From an uncultured Bacilli bacterium (lineage in GTDB: Bacteria > Bacillota_I > Bacilli_A > RFN20 > CAG-826), in contig CALVXI010000004.1 in the NCBI GenBank assembly GCA_944368975.1, positions 1 through 64,000 on the forward strand: a stretch of 64,000 bases of DNA, given 5' to 3'. The position numbers and the translations under genes are program-made. A model generated the notes under the pieces. It was given only the letters and a program-made list of their open reading frames with translations. It had not been told where the DNA came from and made no database searches. Of this stretch, positions 12,876 through 27,604 are shown in pieces. Positions within the stretch are counted from its first letter, which is position 1. Each line of letters starts with the position of its first letter.

Positions 12876-15671
12876 CTAATGTAAGGAACTATAAACAACA
12901 TACTTTTTATTATGAAAATAATTAAATATAAAAGAGATGACGGTTAAAAAAATTGACAACAAACAAATTCCTAGCATTGATGAGAATGGAAAAGCGTAAG
13001 TTAGAGATAAACCTAAAGTTTCTGAAATTATCTTAGATAAGAAAAAAGAAATGAAAATCATTGAAAAAGATGATGTTAATAAACTTGGAAGAGTATAAGA
13101 AAAATTCTTTAATAATTGAAATTTTGAAATTTCTAAATCGTTAAACCCTAAAACTTGTAAAATTGCGTAACTTCTTTTTTCTTCATCAAAATTAATTGTA
13201 TTGATTACAAATAAAAGCACAATTGTTGATAAGCTACTAAAAATTGTAAAAATAATTAAACCAAAATTAACATAATAAAATACTTCATCGATGCTATCAT
13301 TTATTGGTTTAAAAGGGTCAATCAAATTATAATCTCGAAATTTATTATTTATATAGCGTATTTCTTCTTCAGATGGCTTTTCATCAAATTCATAAATAAT
13401 TGAATTCGGTATCAAATTAAATGCACTAATTTCAAAAAAATCTCTAAATAAATAAAGCGAAAATTCACTTCTTTGATAAATCTGTAATCTTTTTGAATCT
13501 ACAACCCCAACAACTTTTAATTTAATAAGCTTAAATTTATTGAAATAATATTCGCCATCAGTTTCTTTACTATAATTTAATAATAAATATAAATCTTTAT
13601 CTATTGGATTTTTAAAGCCTAATTGATTACTAAGTTCAGTCGAGATTACAATTTCATTATAATTTAGATCTTCTTTTCCTTCGTATTTTCCATCATAAAT
13701 CATTGAAAATTTAACATTATCCGGTTTTGAATCAAGCGCATAACCACTTGCAATTTTCGGAGATACATTAATATTTAACGAGTCCTTAATCCTAATTTTT
13801 TCTAATTCATAAATTAGCTTTTCAATCTCATTTTTATCAAATGAAAAAAACATCTGATTTGCGAATCCATTAAATAAACTTGTTCCATAATTTACATATC
13901 CAAAATAAGTAGAATAATAATAATTATTAAATTTATTATTTGTTTCATAAATATCATTAATTATCGAGCTAGAAAATATATCATTAAGTGATTTATAAAC
14001 AAAAATACGGTTTGAATAACAGAGTTCTCCTACACTACAAATTGATGGTGAATATGTACTATTATCTGGATCAAAAAGATAATTTTTATAATTTGCATCC
14101 ATTGAAATTTTATTAATAAAGTTTGTTTGAAAAGTTTTTGTTTTTAAATAATATACTTTTTTCATTATCCAAGGATATTGAGAAATTTCAAACATATTAT
14201 TTGTTGTTGGTAAGCGCATGTTGTCTTCAAAAACAATTTTATTGAATAAATTATTAGAATGATAAATCTTAGTCTGAGGACTTTGCATTACTCCTTTAAG
14301 TATAAACATTTGTTCATCATCATAATTCCAAGAGTCATTACTCACTTTTAAAATTAGTTTTACTTCATTATCTTTTAAATAGTTTCCAAGTGACTCATAA
14401 CTTCGGACAATTTGTAATTCGGAACATAATTTTTCCATATTTAAATAATCTATTGATATGATTATCTCATCATTTTTAAGATTATTGTCAGTCACATCTT
14501 TTGGATAAAATGTATTATTCAAAATTACATCTTTATTAAGTAAATTAAATTCATTTATATTAGTCGCACTAAGAAAGGATATTAAACGAGGAAAATCTCC
14601 ATTTTCAATATAAAAATTGTTTTGACTAACAAAAAATGATGGAAAATTTACTAAATATTTACAGCCAAAATATTCAATATCTTCATTATATTTATCTACT
14701 ATTTTATTAATATCTTCTTCACTTGCAGCATAAGATATTACTTCTTCTGTATTATTTTTCTTTTCTAGAACTAACGAATTTTCATTGATAACATTGCCAA
14801 AAGCTTTATTAATGCTTTCACTAACATTGCTACTTATATATAAAGTTAGTCCCAAAAAAATCAATGATAATGAAAAAATTAAACTTGAAAATAAAAATCT
14901 TCCTTTTTTAATTTTAAGTGAATTTTTTATGCTTCTAATCATGAATTTAAATGATAACCTTGCACTTATTTTATTAGTTTGTGGTATAAAAAAAGTTTCT
15001 TTAGTGCTGTATGATGGTTCATTTTTATTCATTTCTAAAATTTTAAGATCTATAATTTCATCCGCATATTTTTTAACATTTTCATAATCATGGCTAACTA
15101 ATATAACTAAAGACTTATTGGCAATTCTTTTTAAAATTCTGAATATCTGTGTTGAATTTTCTTCATCCAAAGCTCCAGTTGGCTCATCGCAAAATATAAT
15201 TTTAGGATTATTAATTATTGCTCTAGCGATTGCAACTCTTTGTTTCTCTCCACCACTTAAATTTTGTACATATTCATCTTTAATATTTTCAATATCTAGA
15301 TATTTTAAAACATCGTTTATATTTTGATTTTTAATTTGTTTAGAAGTTTTATTTCCCTCTAATACCATTAAAATATTGTTATATACTGTTTCATCTTCAA
15401 ATAAATTATAACTTTGAAATATAAAACCAAAATTTTGATAACGAAAATTTCTTAAATCGTTTTCTTTAAGCTCCTTTAAGTTAACTCCATTAATAATAAT
15501 TTTGCCTTCATAGTCATTATCAAGAGAAGAAATTATATTTAATAATGTCGTCTTACCTAAACCACTTTCACCGACTATTCCATAAATGCCAGTTTCACCT
15601 AATTGACATGAAAAATTTTCAAAAAGTGTCCTATTTCCATATTTTTTTGTTATTTTTTCTATAATTACCAT
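12876..15671 (-). CDS. ABC transporter, fused ATPase and FtsX-type permease (large)
   Basis: A 931-residue protein with an N-terminal ATPase (about 1-220: Walker A GESGLGKTTLLN, signature LSGGEKQRVAIARA, Walker B IIFCDEPTGALD). A transmembrane helix follows at about 262-285, then a roughly 500-residue extracytoplasmic domain, then three C-terminal helices (about 800-925) in a MacB/FtsX-like arrangement. This class mostly moves or senses molecules at the outer face (antimicrobial peptides, lipoproteins) rather than importing solutes. It begins 1 nt after its paralogue at 15673-17682, so the two are co-translated and probably form a heterodimer. Substrate unknown. Confidence 0.85.
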   Translation of the reverse strand: MVIIEKITKKYGNRTLFENFSCQLGETGIYGIVGESGLGKTTLLNIISSLDNDYEGKIIINGVNLKELKENDLRNFRYQNFGFIFQSYNLFEDETVYNNILMVLEGNKTSKQIKNQNINDVLKYLDIENIKDEYVQNLSGGEKQRVAIARAIINNPKIIFCDEPTGALDEENSTQIFRILKRIANKSLVILVSHDYENVKKYADEIIDLKILEMNKNEPSYSTKETFFIPQTNKISARLSFKFMIRSIKNSLKIKKGRFLFSSLIFSLSLIFLGLTLYISSNVSESINKAFGNVINENSLVLEKKNNTEEVISYAASEEDINKIVDKYNEDIEYFGCKYLVNFPSFFVSQNNFYIENGDFPRLISFLSATNINEFNLLNKDVILNNTFYPKDVTDNNLKNDEIIISIDYLNMEKLCSELQIVRSYESLGNYLKDNEVKLILKVSNDSWNYDDEQMFILKGVMQSPQTKIYHSNNLFNKIVFEDNMRLPTTNNMFEISQYPWIMKKVYYLKTKTFQTNFINKISMDANYKNYLFDPDNSTYSPSICSVGELCYSNRIFVYKSLNDIFSSSIINDIYETNNKFNNYYYSTYFGYVNYGTSLFNGFANQMFFSFDKNEIEKLIYELEKIRIKDSLNINVSPKIASGYALDSKPDNVKFSMIYDGKYEGKEDLNYNEIVISTELSNQLGFKNPIDKDLYLLLNYSKETDGEYYFNKFKLIKLKVVGVVDSKRLQIYQRSEFSLYLFRDFFEISAFNLIPNSIIYEFDEKPSEEEIRYINNKFRDYNLIDPFKPINDSIDEVFYYVNFGLIIFTIFSSLSTIVLLFVINTINFDEEKRSYAILQVLGFNDLEISKFQLLKNFSYTLPSLLTSSFSMIFISFFLSKIISETLGLSLTYAFPFSSMLGICLLSIFLTVISFIFNYFHNKKYVVYSSLH

Positions 15672-15672
15672 T

Positions 15673-17682
15673 TTATTCCTCTTTTAATTCTAAAGCTAAA
15701 TCAATCTTATCTGTCTTCATTAAGACAAAATAAATTAATAAATACATAATTAAAATAATTATTAAAATAATCCCTAAATAAACTATTGTTAAAATTCCTT
15801 TATCAATAAATAGGTATAAAAGCATCTTAGTTACATTTAGATTTACTCCAAGGATTAGATTCAATAAATAACTTGATATTAAAGTAACAAGTAAACTTAT
15901 TAAAATACTTAATCCTATAATTTTAAGAAAAAGACTTGAGAATATTCCATAAAGATCGTTTTTCTTTAATCCTTGAATTTTTAAAATTGCTACTACTTTT
16001 CGTTCGGATATAAAAATAGACATAATTATAAAAATAGTTAAAGAAATAGTAGTCAAAAATGAAAGAATTGAAAAAACTAATAATCCAAAAGTTAAGATGT
16101 TAGCAATTTCTAAAAACGATGAAGTAATAGTTTGTCCATTATTTTCAATATTTAAGTTCGAATCTTTTAAAGATTTAGATAAACTATACATTTTACTAGT
16201 ATCATAATCATTAGTAGTAAAGACATTAAAAGAGTAACTAGTTATATCATCATCAGAATTAGCTAACCTTAGAATATCAAGCCATGTATAATTTTGAATA
16301 AATTCTCGATTAATTTTTTCGGTTTTTTGAATGGATACTTCTTCTTTTAATAATTCATATGGAAAATATATTGTCGGCTGTGCTAAATAGGTAAATTCAT
16401 TAATAATTTCAGTTATATAAACTTTCTTTGTTAATATAAAATCTTCATTTACTTCCTTATATTCATCGTTAATAAAATTTTTATAAATATAAGTTGTATT
16501 AAAATTAAAAAACAGCTCACTATAAATTGGTGATTTATTGAATTTCTCAAGATAATAATTTTCAAATGTTGAATTAACAATGATATCTTTTTTATTTTCA
16601 TCGTAATATGTTTCGATTAATACATTATCTAACTTTTTATTATCAATAGTTTTAATAGTACAATTCAAAAAATAATCAAGATTATAATCAATTTTTAAAT
16701 CAATAAAATCATAAAGGTTACTCCTTAAATTTGAGTAATTTGGCCTTGATAATTTTGTTACCGTAATTCCTGTATTTGCACTTTCATTAGTTATTTCACT
16801 TATTTCAAATTTATTAGAGTTTAAATAGCTAAAGTTTAAAGATTGTTCTAAATTATTAATGCCAAAATATAAACTTAGTGTTAAGCCTATAAAAAATAAA
16901 CTTAAAGAAAAAGAAACAAAAAATAATACATTTTTCAACTTGTGAACTTTTAATAATCTATTACTTAAAATATTTCGAAAATTTCTTTTTTCCTTATTTT
17001 TGTGAATATTGGCATTTTTAATTTCTTCTTTAAAAGTTTTATTAATAATTTTAACAATTTTGCCATTTTTTAAAGTTATTACTGAATCATTATTAAAATC
17101 AATAAGACTTTCATTGTGTGTTACTATTATAACTAATCCTTCTTTGGCAAAATCTCTTAATAAATTCATTAAAATTAATGAATTATCATGATCAAGAGCT
17201 CCTGTCGGTTCGTCACAAAATAAAACATTAGGTTTATTTAAAATAGCTCTAACAAAAGCAACTCTTTGCTTTTCACCACCGCTTAGATTTTCAACTTTTT
17301 GGTCTTTTAAATTTAATAATTTGAATTTTTCTAAATAATAATCAATATTACTTTTATCAATATTTTTAATCTCACAAGTGGTTAATAAATTTTCATACAC
17401 CGTGATTCCTTCTATTAAATTTATTGCCTGAAATAGAATGCCAAATGTATTAATTGTTTCATTATTCTTATATACTTCTTTATTATTAAAAAATACTTTT
17501 CCTTCACCAGGCTCTAAAATTCCTTCTAGTATACTTAATAATGTTGTCTTTCCACATCCGCTTTTCCCTAATATAAAAACAATTCCTTTATCGTATAAAG
17601 TTAGGTTTATATTATTTAAAACAGAAATAGAATTTCCATTATTTAATTTAAAAGTTTTTGTAACATTTTTTACTTCTAGCAA
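15673..17682 (-). CDS. ABC transporter, fused ATPase and FtsX-type permease (small)
   Basis: A 669-residue paralogue of the adjacent protein. The ATPase is at about 1-215 (Walker A GKSGCGKTTLLS, signature LSGGEKQRVAFVRA, Walker B LFCDEPTGALD), with a helix near 245-270, an extracytoplasmic domain to about 525 and three further helices. The start is a TTG with AGAGGGG 6 nt upstream; that ribosome site lies in the 3' arm of a hairpin nearly identical to one upstream of recA. The downstream partner starts 1 nt after the stop. A MacB-like heterodimeric efflux or sensing role is inferred from architecture; no two-component genes are nearby. Confidence 0.85.
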   Translation of the reverse strand: MLEVKNVTKTFKLNNGNSISVLNNINLTLYDKGIVFILGKSGCGKTTLLSILEGILEPGEGKVFFNNKEVYKNNETINTFGILFQAINLIEGITVYENLLTTCEIKNIDKSNIDYYLEKFKLLNLKDQKVENLSGGEKQRVAFVRAILNKPNVLFCDEPTGALDHDNSLILMNLLRDFAKEGLVIIVTHNESLIDFNNDSVITLKNGKIVKIINKTFKEEIKNANIHKNKEKRNFRNILSNRLLKVHKLKNVLFFVSFSLSLFFIGLTLSLYFGINNLEQSLNFSYLNSNKFEISEITNESANTGITVTKLSRPNYSNLRSNLYDFIDLKIDYNLDYFLNCTIKTIDNKKLDNVLIETYYDENKKDIIVNSTFENYYLEKFNKSPIYSELFFNFNTTYIYKNFINDEYKEVNEDFILTKKVYITEIINEFTYLAQPTIYFPYELLKEEVSIQKTEKINREFIQNYTWLDILRLANSDDDITSYSFNVFTTNDYDTSKMYSLSKSLKDSNLNIENNGQTITSSFLEIANILTFGLLVFSILSFLTTISLTIFIIMSIFISERKVVAILKIQGLKKNDLYGIFSSLFLKIIGLSILISLLVTLISSYLLNLILGVNLNVTKMLLYLFIDKGILTIVYLGIILIIILIMYLLIYFVLMKTDKIDLALELKEE

Positions 17683-17688
17683 AATTAT

Positions 17689-17732
17689 CCCCTCTATATA
17701 ACAAGTCGTTAATTTTTTAACTTGTTGGGGGG
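17689..17732 (-). promoter_or_regulatory. conserved RBS-sequestering hairpin, copy A
   Basis: On the minus strand a C6 run (17732-17727) faces AGAGGGG (ending at 17689), which is the Shine-Dalgarno of the ABC gene starting at 17682. Inside are CAAGT/ACTTG complementary arms separated by an AT-rich loop. The element nearly fills the 54-nt gap between the fhs stop and the TTG start. It closely matches copy B before recA (26064-26108). Confidence 0.6.
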
Positions 17733-17736
17733 AAAA

Positions 17737-19332
17737 TTACATTTTCATTGCTAAAGGTACTTTAGGGAGTCCAGGCATTGTTAAAATATTTCCACAATAG
17801 CAAACTATAAAACCAGCTCCATTAGAAAGACTCACATCACTTATAGTAATATTAAAATTACGAGGAACATTCAATAATTTTGGATTATCACTAAAACTCG
17901 ATTGAGTTTTTGCCATACATATAGGTAGGTTTTCACATCCTAATTTTTTAATATTTTGAATGGAATCTAAGGCCTTTTTTGTATAAATAACATCTTTTGC
18001 ATGATAAATTTCTTTTGAAATTATATTAATTTTTTCTTCAACGGAACTATTTACATCATATAAATATTTAAGTTCTGATTTTTTTGTATCTAAAACTTCT
18101 TTAACTTTTTTTGCTAATTCAATACTACCTTCTCCGCCTTTTAAGTAGCCATCTAAAAAGGCAAAATTAAATCCGTCTTTGCGACACAATTTAATAAGTT
18201 CTTCAATCTCTTTTTCCTTATCGCTAGCAAAATGATTAATTGCAACCACAACAGGTACATTAAATTTTCTTAAATTAAAGTAATGTTGCTCGAGATTTTT
18301 AAAGCCTTCAGTTAATGCAGAAATATTTTCTTCTTCGAGATTTTCAAAAAGTTCACCACCATGAAGTTTTAAAGCACGTATAGTGGCTACTAAAACGACA
18401 GCGTCCACATGAAGATTTCCTTCTCTACATTTAATATCGAAAAACTTTTCTGCTCCTAGATCGCTAGCAAATCCAGCTTCTGTTATTACTATTGGAGAAA
18501 GTTTAAGAGCTAATTTAGTAGCAATTAAGCTTGAGCAGCCATGAGCAATATTAGCAAAAGGTCCGCCATGAACAAAACATGGATTTCCTTCTTGAGTTTG
18601 AACGATATTAGGTTTTAAGGCATCTTTCATTATTTTCATTATTGCATTAGTAATCTTCAAATCTTTCAAAAAAACAGGTTTATCATCATAAGTATAAGCA
18701 ACAAGTATTTTCTCAATTTTTGCTTTAAAATCTAACTCATCATTGCTTAAGCATAAAATTGCCATTAATTCACTTGCAACAGTAATTACAAAATGTTCTT
18801 CGTGTTCATCTTTTGTTCCTTTATTAACAATGATATTTCTTAAGGCACGATCGTTAACATCTAATGCACGATGCCATAAGATTCTATTTTTATCTATATT
18901 TAATTCATTTCCTTGAAAAATATGATTATCAATAACAGCACTTATTAAATTTATAGCACTTGTTAGAGCATGCATATCACCAGTGAAATGAAGGTTTATA
19001 TCATCATGAGGTTCAATAGTTACCTTCCCTCCTCCTGTAGCTCCGCCTTTTAATCCAAATGTTGGTCCCATTGAAGGTTCTCTTAAACAAAGTAAGGCAT
19101 CTTGATTAATTTTTTTTAATCCATCAAGTAATGCTATAGATGCGGTAGTTTTACCTTCTCCTGCTTTAGTTGGTGTGATTGCTGTAACTAATACTAATTT
19201 ACCATTAGGCTTATCTTTTAAATCATTATAGATACTATTACTAATCTTAGCTTTATAATTTCCATAAAATTCTAAAAAATCCCTACTAATTCCAGCTTTT
19301 TTTGCAATTTTTTCAATATTCTCTAATTCCAT
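17737..19332 (-). CDS. fhs: formate-tetrahydrofolate ligase
   Basis: ATP-dependent synthesis of 10-formyl-THF from formate, feeding one-carbon units to purines and fMet-tRNA. The P-loop is TPTKAGEGKTTASIAL (about residues 53-68), followed by LREPSMGPTFGLKGGATGGG and the C-terminal PGLPKVPLAMKM. At 531 residues it is slightly shorter than the usual 556. Only 12 nt separate it from tcdA upstream, implying co-transcription. Confidence 0.95.
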   Translation of the reverse strand: MELENIEKIAKKAGISRDFLEFYGNYKAKISNSIYNDLKDKPNGKLVLVTAITPTKAGEGKTTASIALLDGLKKINQDALLCLREPSMGPTFGLKGGATGGGKVTIEPHDDINLHFTGDMHALTSAINLISAVIDNHIFQGNELNIDKNRILWHRALDVNDRALRNIIVNKGTKDEHEEHFVITVASELMAILCLSNDELDFKAKIEKILVAYTYDDKPVFLKDLKITNAIMKIMKDALKPNIVQTQEGNPCFVHGGPFANIAHGCSSLIATKLALKLSPIVITEAGFASDLGAEKFFDIKCREGNLHVDAVVLVATIRALKLHGGELFENLEEENISALTEGFKNLEQHYFNLRKFNVPVVVAINHFASDKEKEIEELIKLCRKDGFNFAFLDGYLKGGEGSIELAKKVKEVLDTKKSELKYLYDVNSSVEEKINIISKEIYHAKDVIYTKKALDSIQNIKKLGCENLPICMAKTQSSFSDNPKLLNVPRNFNITISDVSLSNGAGFIVCYCGNILTMPGLPKVPLAMKM

Positions 19333-25054: not shown

Positions 25055-26056
25055 CTAATCAGTTTTTAAGCACTCATTAATTTCATTTTTTAAATGCGCA
25101 AATATTTCAGGATTATCAGCTAAATATTGCTTTGCAGTATCTCTTCCTTGTCCCATTCTATCGCCATTTAATTCATACCAGGAACCTTTCTTCTCAATTA
25201 AACCATAATCAATAGCCAAATCAAGAAGTTCACCTTCTTTAGAAATTCCTTTTCCATAAATTATGTCCAATTGGCAATGTTTAAATGGTGGCGCAACTTT
25301 ATTTTTAACAACCTTTACTGTTACAGTATTACCAATTAAGTTCCCATTTTGTTTTATAGCTTCACTTCGACGAATATCAATTCTAACTGTTGCGAAGAAT
25401 TTTAGTGCTCTTCCACCTGTAGTTGTTTCATTACTTCCATAAATAACCCCAACTTTCTCACGAAGTTGATTTATAAAAATAACACTGCAACCACTTTTAT
25501 TTAATGTAGGTGTTATTTTTCGCATTGCTTTTGACATCATTCTTGCTTGTAAACCAACGCTTGAATCTGTCATAAGACCATCAAGTTCTTGTTGTGGAAC
25601 TAAAGCAGCAACACTATCAACAACGATTAATTGAAAACATCCTTTTTGAGCTAATAATTCAACTATTTGCAAAGCTTCTTCACCTGAATCAGGCTGAGAA
25701 AGAATTAAATTATCAATATCGACTCCTAGAGCTTTAGCATACACTGGATCAATTGATTGTTCAGCATCTATATAAGCACACATGCCACCGTCTTTTTGAC
25801 ACTCAGCAACTGCAGTAAGAGCTAAAGTAGTTTTGCCACTACTTTCTGGCCCAAAAATTTCAATAATTCGTCCTTTTGGATAGCCACCAATTCCTAAACA
25901 TTTATCAAGTAATATAGAACCACTTGATAGGGAATCAATTGAAACATTTGGTCTATCGCCTAAACGCATGATAGAACCTTCACCAAATGATTTTCTTATT
26001 TCTTTAAGAAGATCATCGATATTAATGTCTAAATTAGTATCTTGTTCTTTTTTCAT
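25055..26056 (-). CDS. recA: recombinase RecA
   Basis: Strand-exchange ATPase for homologous recombination. Walker A is GPESSGKTTLAL, Walker B is LIVVDSVAAL, and VPQQELDG and TGGRALKFFATVRIDIRR are conserved. At 333 residues it has a short C-terminal tail. The ATG is preceded by AGAGGGG, which lies in the 3' arm of a hairpin nearly identical to one before the ABC transporter at 15673-17682. No LexA-type operator was recognised. Confidence 0.97.
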   Translation of the reverse strand: MKKEQDTNLDINIDDLLKEIRKSFGEGSIMRLGDRPNVSIDSLSSGSILLDKCLGIGGYPKGRIIEIFGPESSGKTTLALTAVAECQKDGGMCAYIDAEQSIDPVYAKALGVDIDNLILSQPDSGEEALQIVELLAQKGCFQLIVVDSVAALVPQQELDGLMTDSSVGLQARMMSKAMRKITPTLNKSGCSVIFINQLREKVGVIYGSNETTTGGRALKFFATVRIDIRRSEAIKQNGNLIGNTVTVKVVKNKVAPPFKHCQLDIIYGKGISKEGELLDLAIDYGLIEKKGSWYELNGDRMGQGRDTAKQYLADNPEIFAHLKNEINECLKTD

Positions 26057-26063
26057 ATTCCTA

Positions 26064-26108
26064 CCCCTCTATTATACAAGTAGTTGTTTTAATAACTTGT
26101 TTGGGGGG
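26064..26108 (-). promoter_or_regulatory. conserved RBS-sequestering hairpin, copy B (recA leader)
   Basis: On the minus strand a C6 run (26108-26103) can pair with the GGGG of the recA Shine-Dalgarno (ending at 26064), with CAAGT/ACTTG arms inside. No T-tract follows in either direction, so it is not an intrinsic terminator. Only one indel and a few substitutions separate it from copy A at 17689-17732. Confidence 0.6.
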
Positions 26109-26121
26109 TAAAATTTAAAAA

Positions 26122-26592
26122 TTATTTTCCAACAATAGAAATAACAGTATCAATTAATGACTCAACTGCTATTTGTCTTACTTTTTCTCTTTCAGCTTCT
26201 AATCTTAATGGAATAGGCCAAACTTGTCCTTTATAAACAATTGCCATATAAATTTCGCCTACATCAGCATCGCCTGGGCAGGTATTAGGACCAGCATTTC
26301 CAGTAAAGCTTACACAAATATCAACGTCTAAAACACGTTGACCTTTAATAGCCATTTCTTTAGCTACACCCCAACTAACAATTCCGTTTGTATCAATGAA
26401 CTCTTCACTCATTCCTAAAAGTTTCATTTTTAACTCTTTTGAATAAGTAACTAATCCACCTTTAAAACATTTACTTGCTCCACTAACATCAGTAATAGTT
26501 TTAGCAAATAAACCACCAGTAAAGGATTCAACAGAACCAATAGTTAGTCCTTTTTTAGTTAAAACATCAACTAAATGACTTGCATTATTCAT
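26122..26592 (-). CDS. CinA C-terminal domain protein (nicotinamide-nucleotide amidase)
   Basis: A stand-alone CinA C-terminal domain, PncC family, expected to deamidate NMN to nicotinate mononucleotide. ESFTGGLFAKTITDVSGASKCFKGGLVTYS and VSFTGNAGPN are the family motifs. The start is placed at MNNASHL (26592), preceded by GGAGG inside pgsA with an 8-nt overlap, giving 156 residues; upstream in-frame ATGs would lie deep in pgsA. Lacking the N-terminal MoCF domain, it is the short form. It precedes recA, as cinA does in many Bacillota. Confidence 0.88.
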   Translation of the reverse strand: MNNASHLVDVLTKKGLTIGSVESFTGGLFAKTITDVSGASKCFKGGLVTYSKELKMKLLGMSEEFIDTNGIVSWGVAKEMAIKGQRVLDVDICVSFTGNAGPNTCPGDADVGEIYMAIVYKGQVWPIPLRLEAEREKVRQIAVESLIDTVISIVGK

Positions 26593-27250
26593 TATTCTTT
26601 CCTCCAATAACATGTTTATTTTGAATAACATAAATGACACCACTAACAAGTGATGCAATTGTAGTTAAATAACAGAAAATAGATGTAATTGTCACATATT
26701 GATTCCAAGTAGAATCAAAATATGAAAATGGAAAACCATTTAAAAAGACAAATGCGATTGTGAACATTTGTAAAACAGTTTTTAATTTACCAAAAATATT
26801 AGCGCTAATAACAACATTTTTCTTTGCTGCCATAAGCCTAAGTCCATCAACAATTAAGTCTCTAATAATCATCAAAATTACGCAAAAGAAAGGTATCTTT
26901 GTATAAGTTGATAAAGAAGTAAAATTAATAGCTAAAAATATAAGCATAGAATTTACTAACATTTTGTCAGCAATAGGATCTAGAAACTTTCCTAAATCGG
27001 TAACTTGATTATTTTTTCTTGCTAAGTAACCATCAAGAAAATCAGTTGCACTAGCAAATATGAAAACAAAAAATAAAATTATCATTATCCAGTTTATAAA
27101 AGAATTCCCGCCGATTGATATATTGGCTAATGCAATAAATCCTGTATATTGATCGGCTAAATACATTACAATAATCGCCACAATTAGTAAAAAACTAAGT
27201 ATAATACGTGAAATTGTAATTTTCGTTGGAAGATTAATTTTTTCTTTCAT
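26585..27250 (-). CDS. pgsA: CDP-diacylglycerol-glycerol-3-phosphate 3-phosphatidyltransferase
   Basis: Integral membrane enzyme making phosphatidylglycerol phosphate. The CDP-alcohol phosphotransferase motif is present as DFLDGYLARKNNQVTDLGKFLDPIADK (spelled over residues about 67-93, with the essential aspartates). About six hydrophobic segments span 221 residues. AGGGG precedes the ATG just past the rnpB 3' end. It leads the recA-rny-miaB run; glycerol 3-phosphate for it would come from GpsA at 31.7 kb. Confidence 0.93.
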   Translation of the reverse strand: MKEKINLPTKITISRIILSFLLIVAIIVMYLADQYTGFIALANISIGGNSFINWIMIILFFVFIFASATDFLDGYLARKNNQVTDLGKFLDPIADKMLVNSMLIFLAINFTSLSTYTKIPFFCVILMIIRDLIVDGLRLMAAKKNVVISANIFGKLKTVLQMFTIAFVFLNGFPFSYFDSTWNQYVTITSIFCYLTTIASLVSGVIYVIQNKHVIGGKNNE

Positions 27251-27269: not shown

Positions 27270-27604
27270 TATTCAGTCCATAAGCCATGTTCTGTTTTAT
27301 GCAATCATTTATCTAAGTTTCCTTGCTAGATTTGATTGAATTCTCTATCTAACTTCCTCTACCAAAATTTGAGTTTCTCGCTTGTGGGGTTTACCGCGTT
27401 TCACCTTAAGTTTTCACTTAAGTTCGTCACTGTGGCACTTTATAAGTTATTACTCATGAGTTTCCTTTTAGAGTTAACTTGCCGTTACTAGCTCCCTAGT
27501 ACCTAGGATTATTTTTTCTCCTAGCGCAATCACTACTATCATCTCAGATAGTGCGAGCATGGACTTTCCTCTAACTTATTAAGCCAGCGATTGCATAGAC
27601 TGAA
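27270..27604 (-). ncRNA. rnpB: RNase P RNA (Bacillus-type, class B)
   Basis: The catalytic RNA of RNase P. The universally conserved GAGGAAAGTCCATGCTCGC segment lies near 27556-27575 on the minus strand. The 3' part contains the conserved ACAGAACATGGCTTATG, and the ends pair as TTCAGTC with GACTGAA to form P1. Its place between gpsB and pgsA (rnpB next to gpsB) matches Bacilli. End positions are set from P1 pairing and may be off by a few nt. Confidence 0.95.

Follow-up and report, generated by a model that had tools for sequence, protein, structure and literature searches.

Two near-identical elements, A and B, which precede an ABC transporter gene and recA in the 64,000-nucleotide stretch of DNA analysed here (the window), are very probably promoters of a natural-competence regulon, in which a dedicated factor, probably an alternative sigma, would read CCCCCCAA and ACTACTTGTAT and produce transcripts with a very short leader. 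The analysis established directly that the motif has two parts at a fixed spacing, that it is conserved and which genes it precedes. In kind this is an ordinary competence regulon promoter; its sequence, the clade in which it occurs and its architecture are new. A competence regulon can be read from the genome in an uncultured clade of gut Bacilli on whose competence we found no published work, and its promoter code can be searched in other genomes.

Both elements lie on the minus strand, where by direct reading A (17689-17732) is CCCCCCAACAAGTTAAAAAATTAACGACTTGTTATATAGAGGGG and B (26064-26108) is CCCCCCAAACAAGTTATTAAAACAACTACTTGTATAATAGAGGGG. Their resemblance is far above chance; the pattern CCCC-N20..45-GGGG occurs in the window at A and B only, with 0.23 occurrences expected, and the exact long pattern common to them has two occurrences in the whole 1.3 Mb genome. 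A preliminary description, made from the letters of the window, had placed these two copies correctly, and it was also right that the G-run of the ribosome site stands 6-7 nt 5' of the start codons (TTG at 17682 for A, ATG at 26056 for B), that the C-run is able to pair with that site and that neither copy has a T-tract, so that the terminator pattern of a GC stem followed by a U-tract is absent from both. RNA folds of -13.2 (A) and -14.3 kcal/mol (B) have the ribosome site paired in each, with a modest z of about -2. A known RNA family was dropped as an explanation because Rfam gave no credible match, with no family near A and, at B, sub-threshold matches on the opposite strand only. Coordinates of the features and the genes preceded by elements in this genome are collected in the table.

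Table. Features of elements A and B, neighbouring genes, and genes preceded by elements elsewhere in the genome (coordinates are those of the window).
Feature	Position or locus	Strand	Remarks
-35-like box CCCCCCAA of element A	17725..17732	-	Direct reading; C-run conservation over 42 elements
-10-like box ACGACTTGTTAT of element A	17698..17709	-	Direct reading; ACTTG invariant in 42/42 elements
GGGG in ribosome site of ABC transporter gene	17689..17692	-	Pairing with C-run possible in read-through RNA
ABC transporter, ATPase-permease fusion, MacB-like, TTG start	15673..17682	-	Target of element A; own genome
Second ABC transporter (ATPase + FtsX-like permease)	12876..15671	-	Next gene after target of A; own genome
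fhs (formate-tetrahydrofolate ligase)	17737..19332	-	Co-directional, upstream of A; stop ~5 nt before A
-35-like box CCCCCCAA of element B	26101..26108	-	Direct reading; 42-element comparison
-10-like box ACTACTTGTAT of element B	26074..26084	-	Direct reading; invariant core over 42 elements
GGGG in recA ribosome site	26064..26067	-	Direct reading; RNA fold
recA	25055..26056	-	Target of element B; own genome
cinA	26122..26658	-	Co-directional neighbour upstream of B; read-through RNA would hold hairpin B
RNase P class B RNA (Rfam RF00011)	27277-27600	-	
comEA-comEC	L036		Own genome
61-aa peptide + radC	L038		Own genome
Two thioredoxin-like lipoproteins + third gene	L035		Own genome; third gene is endonuclease I in G006 (L126)
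CpaF/Tad-like pilus operon	L070		Own genome
rpsF-ssb-rpsR	L069		Own genome
comFA	L119		Own genome
dprA-topA	L122		Own genome
C39-peptidase exporter	L121		Own genome
170-aa protein	L120		Own genome
200-aa membrane protein	L123		Own genome
17-codon ORF before TnpB gene	L068		Own genome

A and B are not a lone pair, as had been supposed; the genome, of Candidatus Onthovivens type, holds at least 13 related copies, every one before a gene, with a common core of CCCCCCAA, 18 nt (19 in one case) and ACTACTTGTAT, usually followed by a G-rich ribosome site. A genome-wide search for a dyad with mismatches together with CCCC...GRGG yielded six more clear elements, and an alignment of eight elements of this genome with the recA leaders of three sister species gave the core CCCCC(C)AA-N18-ACTACTTGTAT. 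A search model built from those 11 elements, holding sequence and no structure, returned 13 sites in the genome itself, of which 12 had E<1e-3 and one had 0.0012. In each of the sister species G006, G008 and G020 it returned about 7-12 sites at E<0.01; no comparable set came from the remaining 22 species of the genus. Further copies in the genome and its relatives, for which the preliminary description had proposed a search, are thus found by sequence in both.

Across 42 elements ACTTG is identical in all, five C-run positions each show 79-93% conservation, and nearly every element has a gap of 21-23 nt between C-run and CTTG. The full inner stem ACAAGT/ACTTGT is found in 4/42 elements only, for which reason we rejected the palindrome as an essential part. 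The recA orthologs of the three sister species have lost the ACAAGT arm and retain CCCCC and TACTTGT, and across much of the genus recA leaders retain a CTTGT-like motif 5' of the ribosome site. The extra ACAAGT half, which completes a perfect dyad with the -10 in A (17701-17725), in B (26076-26100) and at L035 and L036, is above chance in these four copies and absent in sister species.

The invariance of ACTTG, the conserved C-run, the fixed distance between them and the recA orthologs that keep both boxes without ACAAGT all argue for a promoter. We infer promoter function, start sites, the use of a sigma factor and competence-dependent induction. CCCCCCAA would serve as -35 and ACTACTTGTAT as -10 for a dedicated transcription factor, in all likelihood an alternative sigma, and transcription would start just 5' of, or within, the G-rich ribosome site. 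Because the C-run lies upstream of this presumed start, the hairpin at A or B would form solely in RNA read through from fhs or cinA and might there hide the ribosome site as a secondary insulating effect and not as the main function; at these two elements the hairpin is mostly a by-product of the promoter. Against the promoter reading count the lack of a ComX/SigH-like sigma among the sigma factors found, the poor fit of the ECF sigma, a -10 unlike the CIN-box, and the enrichment of G-runs in ribosome sites of the regulon over those of other genes, as pure promoter logic needs no G-run. The C-run and G-run do not, however, clearly track each other, since elements at the C39 exporter of this genome (G000) and at comFA of G020 have GGGGG without a C-run and since G006, with ribosome sites usually of AGGAGG type, keeps the C-run and largely lacks G-runs.

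A second subclade, of five other species of the genus, has GTGAATA-N16/17-GCATTCTTG in place of the C-run type. The pattern GAATA-N{12,22}-CATTCTTG matched 65 times in this subclade, and the reversed pattern, used as a control, gave 0 matches. Although spacers of 12 to 22 were allowed, 61/65 matches fell at N16 or N17, and a near-fixed spacing of this kind points to promoter anatomy. Sites of the GTGAATA type include comEA, comFA and the leaders of the same small peptide that is found before radC. Between sister clades the putative -35 types are CCCCCCAA, GTGAATA, GAGAGATAAA, TTGGTAAA and TCGGAAAA. In G003 and G014 (L276, L288, L296, L298, L303 and L305), several promoter copies run into near-identical TTGTCTAGTAAACGYCGACGTAGGTTG..GGG and lack a long ORF, and others run into GGGAAA..CCTTTATACCC leaders; an Rfam search of these post-promoter sequences gave no match, and they are possibly a small RNA family.

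The list of target genes reads like a late-competence regulon, and for most of them, including the ABC transporter gene behind A, the orthologs in three sister species are also preceded by the element. Counterparts of recA, comEA, comEC, comFA, dprA, radC and ssb belong to the core streptococcal SigX regulon, with which the arrangement of dprA followed by topA is also shared (PMC5069739). In S. suis, nuclease and bacteriocin genes are co-regulated with competence (PMC5167698), which is a further strong overlap with the set found here.

A conserved secreted peptide of 60-61 aa is encoded before radC (L038:1296-1481, minus strand; also L127, L134, L147 and L285-L287). Its leader is double-glycine-like, it has a single hydrophobic helix, and its C-terminus is PGG[WY]xFxx. 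It lies under the putative competence promoter in both subclades, and a C39-peptidase exporter belongs to the regulon as well; the peptide is a candidate pheromone or bacteriocin. The co-regulated pilus operon (L070 and L078, on contig 17 of G000) encodes a CpaF/TadA-like ATPase, two TadB/TadC-like membrane proteins and a small pilin-like ORF. From this gene content, DNA uptake may proceed through a Tad-type pilus rather than ComG, which makes this pilus a candidate uptake machine. Elsewhere, a TnpB-type gene (L068:1709-3046, minus strand) is preceded by a 17-codon ORF and a competence-type promoter. In G008 an element on the minus strand (C2:173307, L131) is followed within ~20 nt by a terminator-like hairpin and by no ORF, and could give a very short competence RNA.

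The regulon also suggests that a competence sigma factor or activator is still to be found. A search with PF04542/TIGR02937 of this genome, which is 95% complete, found two RpoD-like sigma factors and one ECF, and no ComX/SigH-like sigma. The ECF sigma (C3:57513) is an unlikely regulator because G018 and G022, nearly complete genomes that yet keep the -10 motif, lack it, and because its similarity does not follow the -35 type, the ECF of G000 being nearer that of G007 (71%) than that of G006 (50%) although the CCCC -35 is common to G000 and G006. The second RpoD-like sigma, not found in G006 or G020, is likewise unlikely. In G000 (C6, L077:3036-6257) the two closely similar RpoD-like genes stand nearly in tandem, with one methyltransferase-like gene between them, and several further species of the genus likewise have a second copy beside the first.

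A further proposal adds to the promoter reading and is not its opposite: the promoters are real, and the hairpin was in addition selected to terminate or silence read-through from greA, cinA and fhs. Evidence for it comes chiefly from comEA, where the Shine-Dalgarno core is paired with an upstream arm in 29/30 genomes, with compensatory changes at several positions, and where 0/5000 permutations were as good as the real pairing (z -9). These results come from per-genome folds and permutation, used because RNAalifold on a MAFFT alignment of the comEA leaders gave no pairs, apparently through misregistration of the stem. By rule-based detection of terminators and U-tracts, a U-tract follows the 3' (ribosome site) arm in 21/23 genomes without a separate terminator and in 0/7 with one (Fisher p = 2e-5); a stricter rule gave 21/25 and 0/5. 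As the U-tract is present where a separate terminator is missing, the simplest view of the comEA hairpin is that it terminates the upstream gene while its loop carries the -10 and its 3' arm the ribosome site, so that terminator, promoter and ribosome site are superposed in about 45 nt. RNA starting from the inner promoter would not include the 5' arm and so would escape the hairpin. The stem of the copy at the thioredoxin operon is also flanked by A7/T6, and A and B each stand behind a co-directional gene with gaps of ~5-13 nt. However, A and B themselves have no T-tract, their pairing is not conserved in orthologs, and an exchange of 5' arms between elements within the clade of this genome and its three sister species made little difference (permutation fractions 0.24, 0.11, 0.03 and 0.15), showing no clear specific match. 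Selection for insulation as a second function seems to us rather unlikely.

The preliminary description had suggested a translational switch, or else a shared operator. In such a switch the transcript would hold the whole hairpin, and a ligand, a protein, an sRNA or temperature would free the ribosome site. The folds of A and B, the G-runs of the regulon's ribosome sites and above all the covarying stem at comEA speak for it, and since that stem masks the ribosome site the structural intuition was not baseless. At recA, however, pairing of the spacer with the ribosome site was barely above chance in 26 genomes (mean z against shuffles -0.3), the real arms were slightly better than species-swapped ones (z -2.9; 16/5000 permutations as good) largely due to G007, and no covarying stem that pairs the ribosome site was found in these genomes. 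Covariation in relatives, the evidence that had been proposed for the switch, is therefore present at comEA in 30 genomes and missing at recA. The element also lies ~180 nt before the start codon of ssb and ~120 nt before that of the 170-aa gene, and at comFA an in-frame ATG stands directly 3' of the -10, positions that do not fit a switch at the ribosome site. The scarcity of the inner stem, the AGGAGG-type sites of G006, the elements with GGGGG and no C-run and the Rfam result weigh against it further, and we regard it as very unlikely. At A and B the switch lacks support, given the near-chance pairing at recA, the lost arm, the arm swaps and the distance at ssb; the idea of a shared operator survives, as a shared transcription signal. 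Least credible of all, and largely refuted, is an SOS or DNA-damage operator, in which a repressor would bind the palindrome ACAAGT-N13-ACTTGT in front of recA and of the transporter gene. Four copies, that of recA among them, do carry the perfect dyad, but neither the remaining elements nor the recA orthologs have it, the LexA DNA-binding domain PF01726 has no match at E<=1 in an assembly from which 5% of the genome may be missing, and the co-regulated genes, which speak equally against the DNA-damage link drawn earlier, are those of competence and not of excision repair.

Beyond the promoters themselves, we tentatively suggest, as a picture that is somewhat more likely to fail than to hold in full, that competence in an uncultured lineage of gut Bacilli runs through an undescribed sigma factor with a -35 specificity repeatedly altered between sister clades and a fixed -10, that terminator, promoter and ribosome site are combined in one 45-nt hairpin, and that the Tad-type pilus is the uptake machine.

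Three known systems bear comparison. The streptococcal ComX/SigX regulon likewise comprises recA, comEA-EC, comFA, dprA-topA, ssb, radC, an uptake pilus, a secreted endonuclease and bacteriocin-like genes, and there, too, a single short, dedicated promoter signal precedes every operon (PMC5167698, PMC5069739). A shared signal before the core genes, the mark of late competence, is found here in the 13 elements and before the same genes in sister species. The motif itself differs, as CCCCCCAA-N18-ACTACTTGTAT, with its invariant ACTTG, does not correspond to the CIN-box YTACGAAYW; moreover, the pilus operon here is Tad/CpaF-like and not ComG, and no ComX-like sigma was found in the 95% complete genome. 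Clostridial sigma-I promoters have a -35 of a C-run followed by an A-tract, CCCCTAAA or CCCCTCAAA (PMC6056542). The C-run followed by A bases in CCCCCCAA bears some resemblance to this, but the A-tract amounts to two bases only and is missing in elements of G008 and G020, the -10 is ACTTGTAT where sigma-I has CGAA or CGTA, the C-run is lacking in other subclades of this genus, and SigI was not found.

A parallel in architecture comes from phage. In T4 gene e (lysozyme) the ribosome site is masked in read-through RNA, and a late promoter lies within the hairpin. In the elements described here, best seen at comEA, the hairpin similarly carries promoter sequence in its loop, and its 3' arm is the ribosome site; unlike in T4, the hairpin is often also the terminator of the upstream gene, and the promoter is the signal of a whole regulon.
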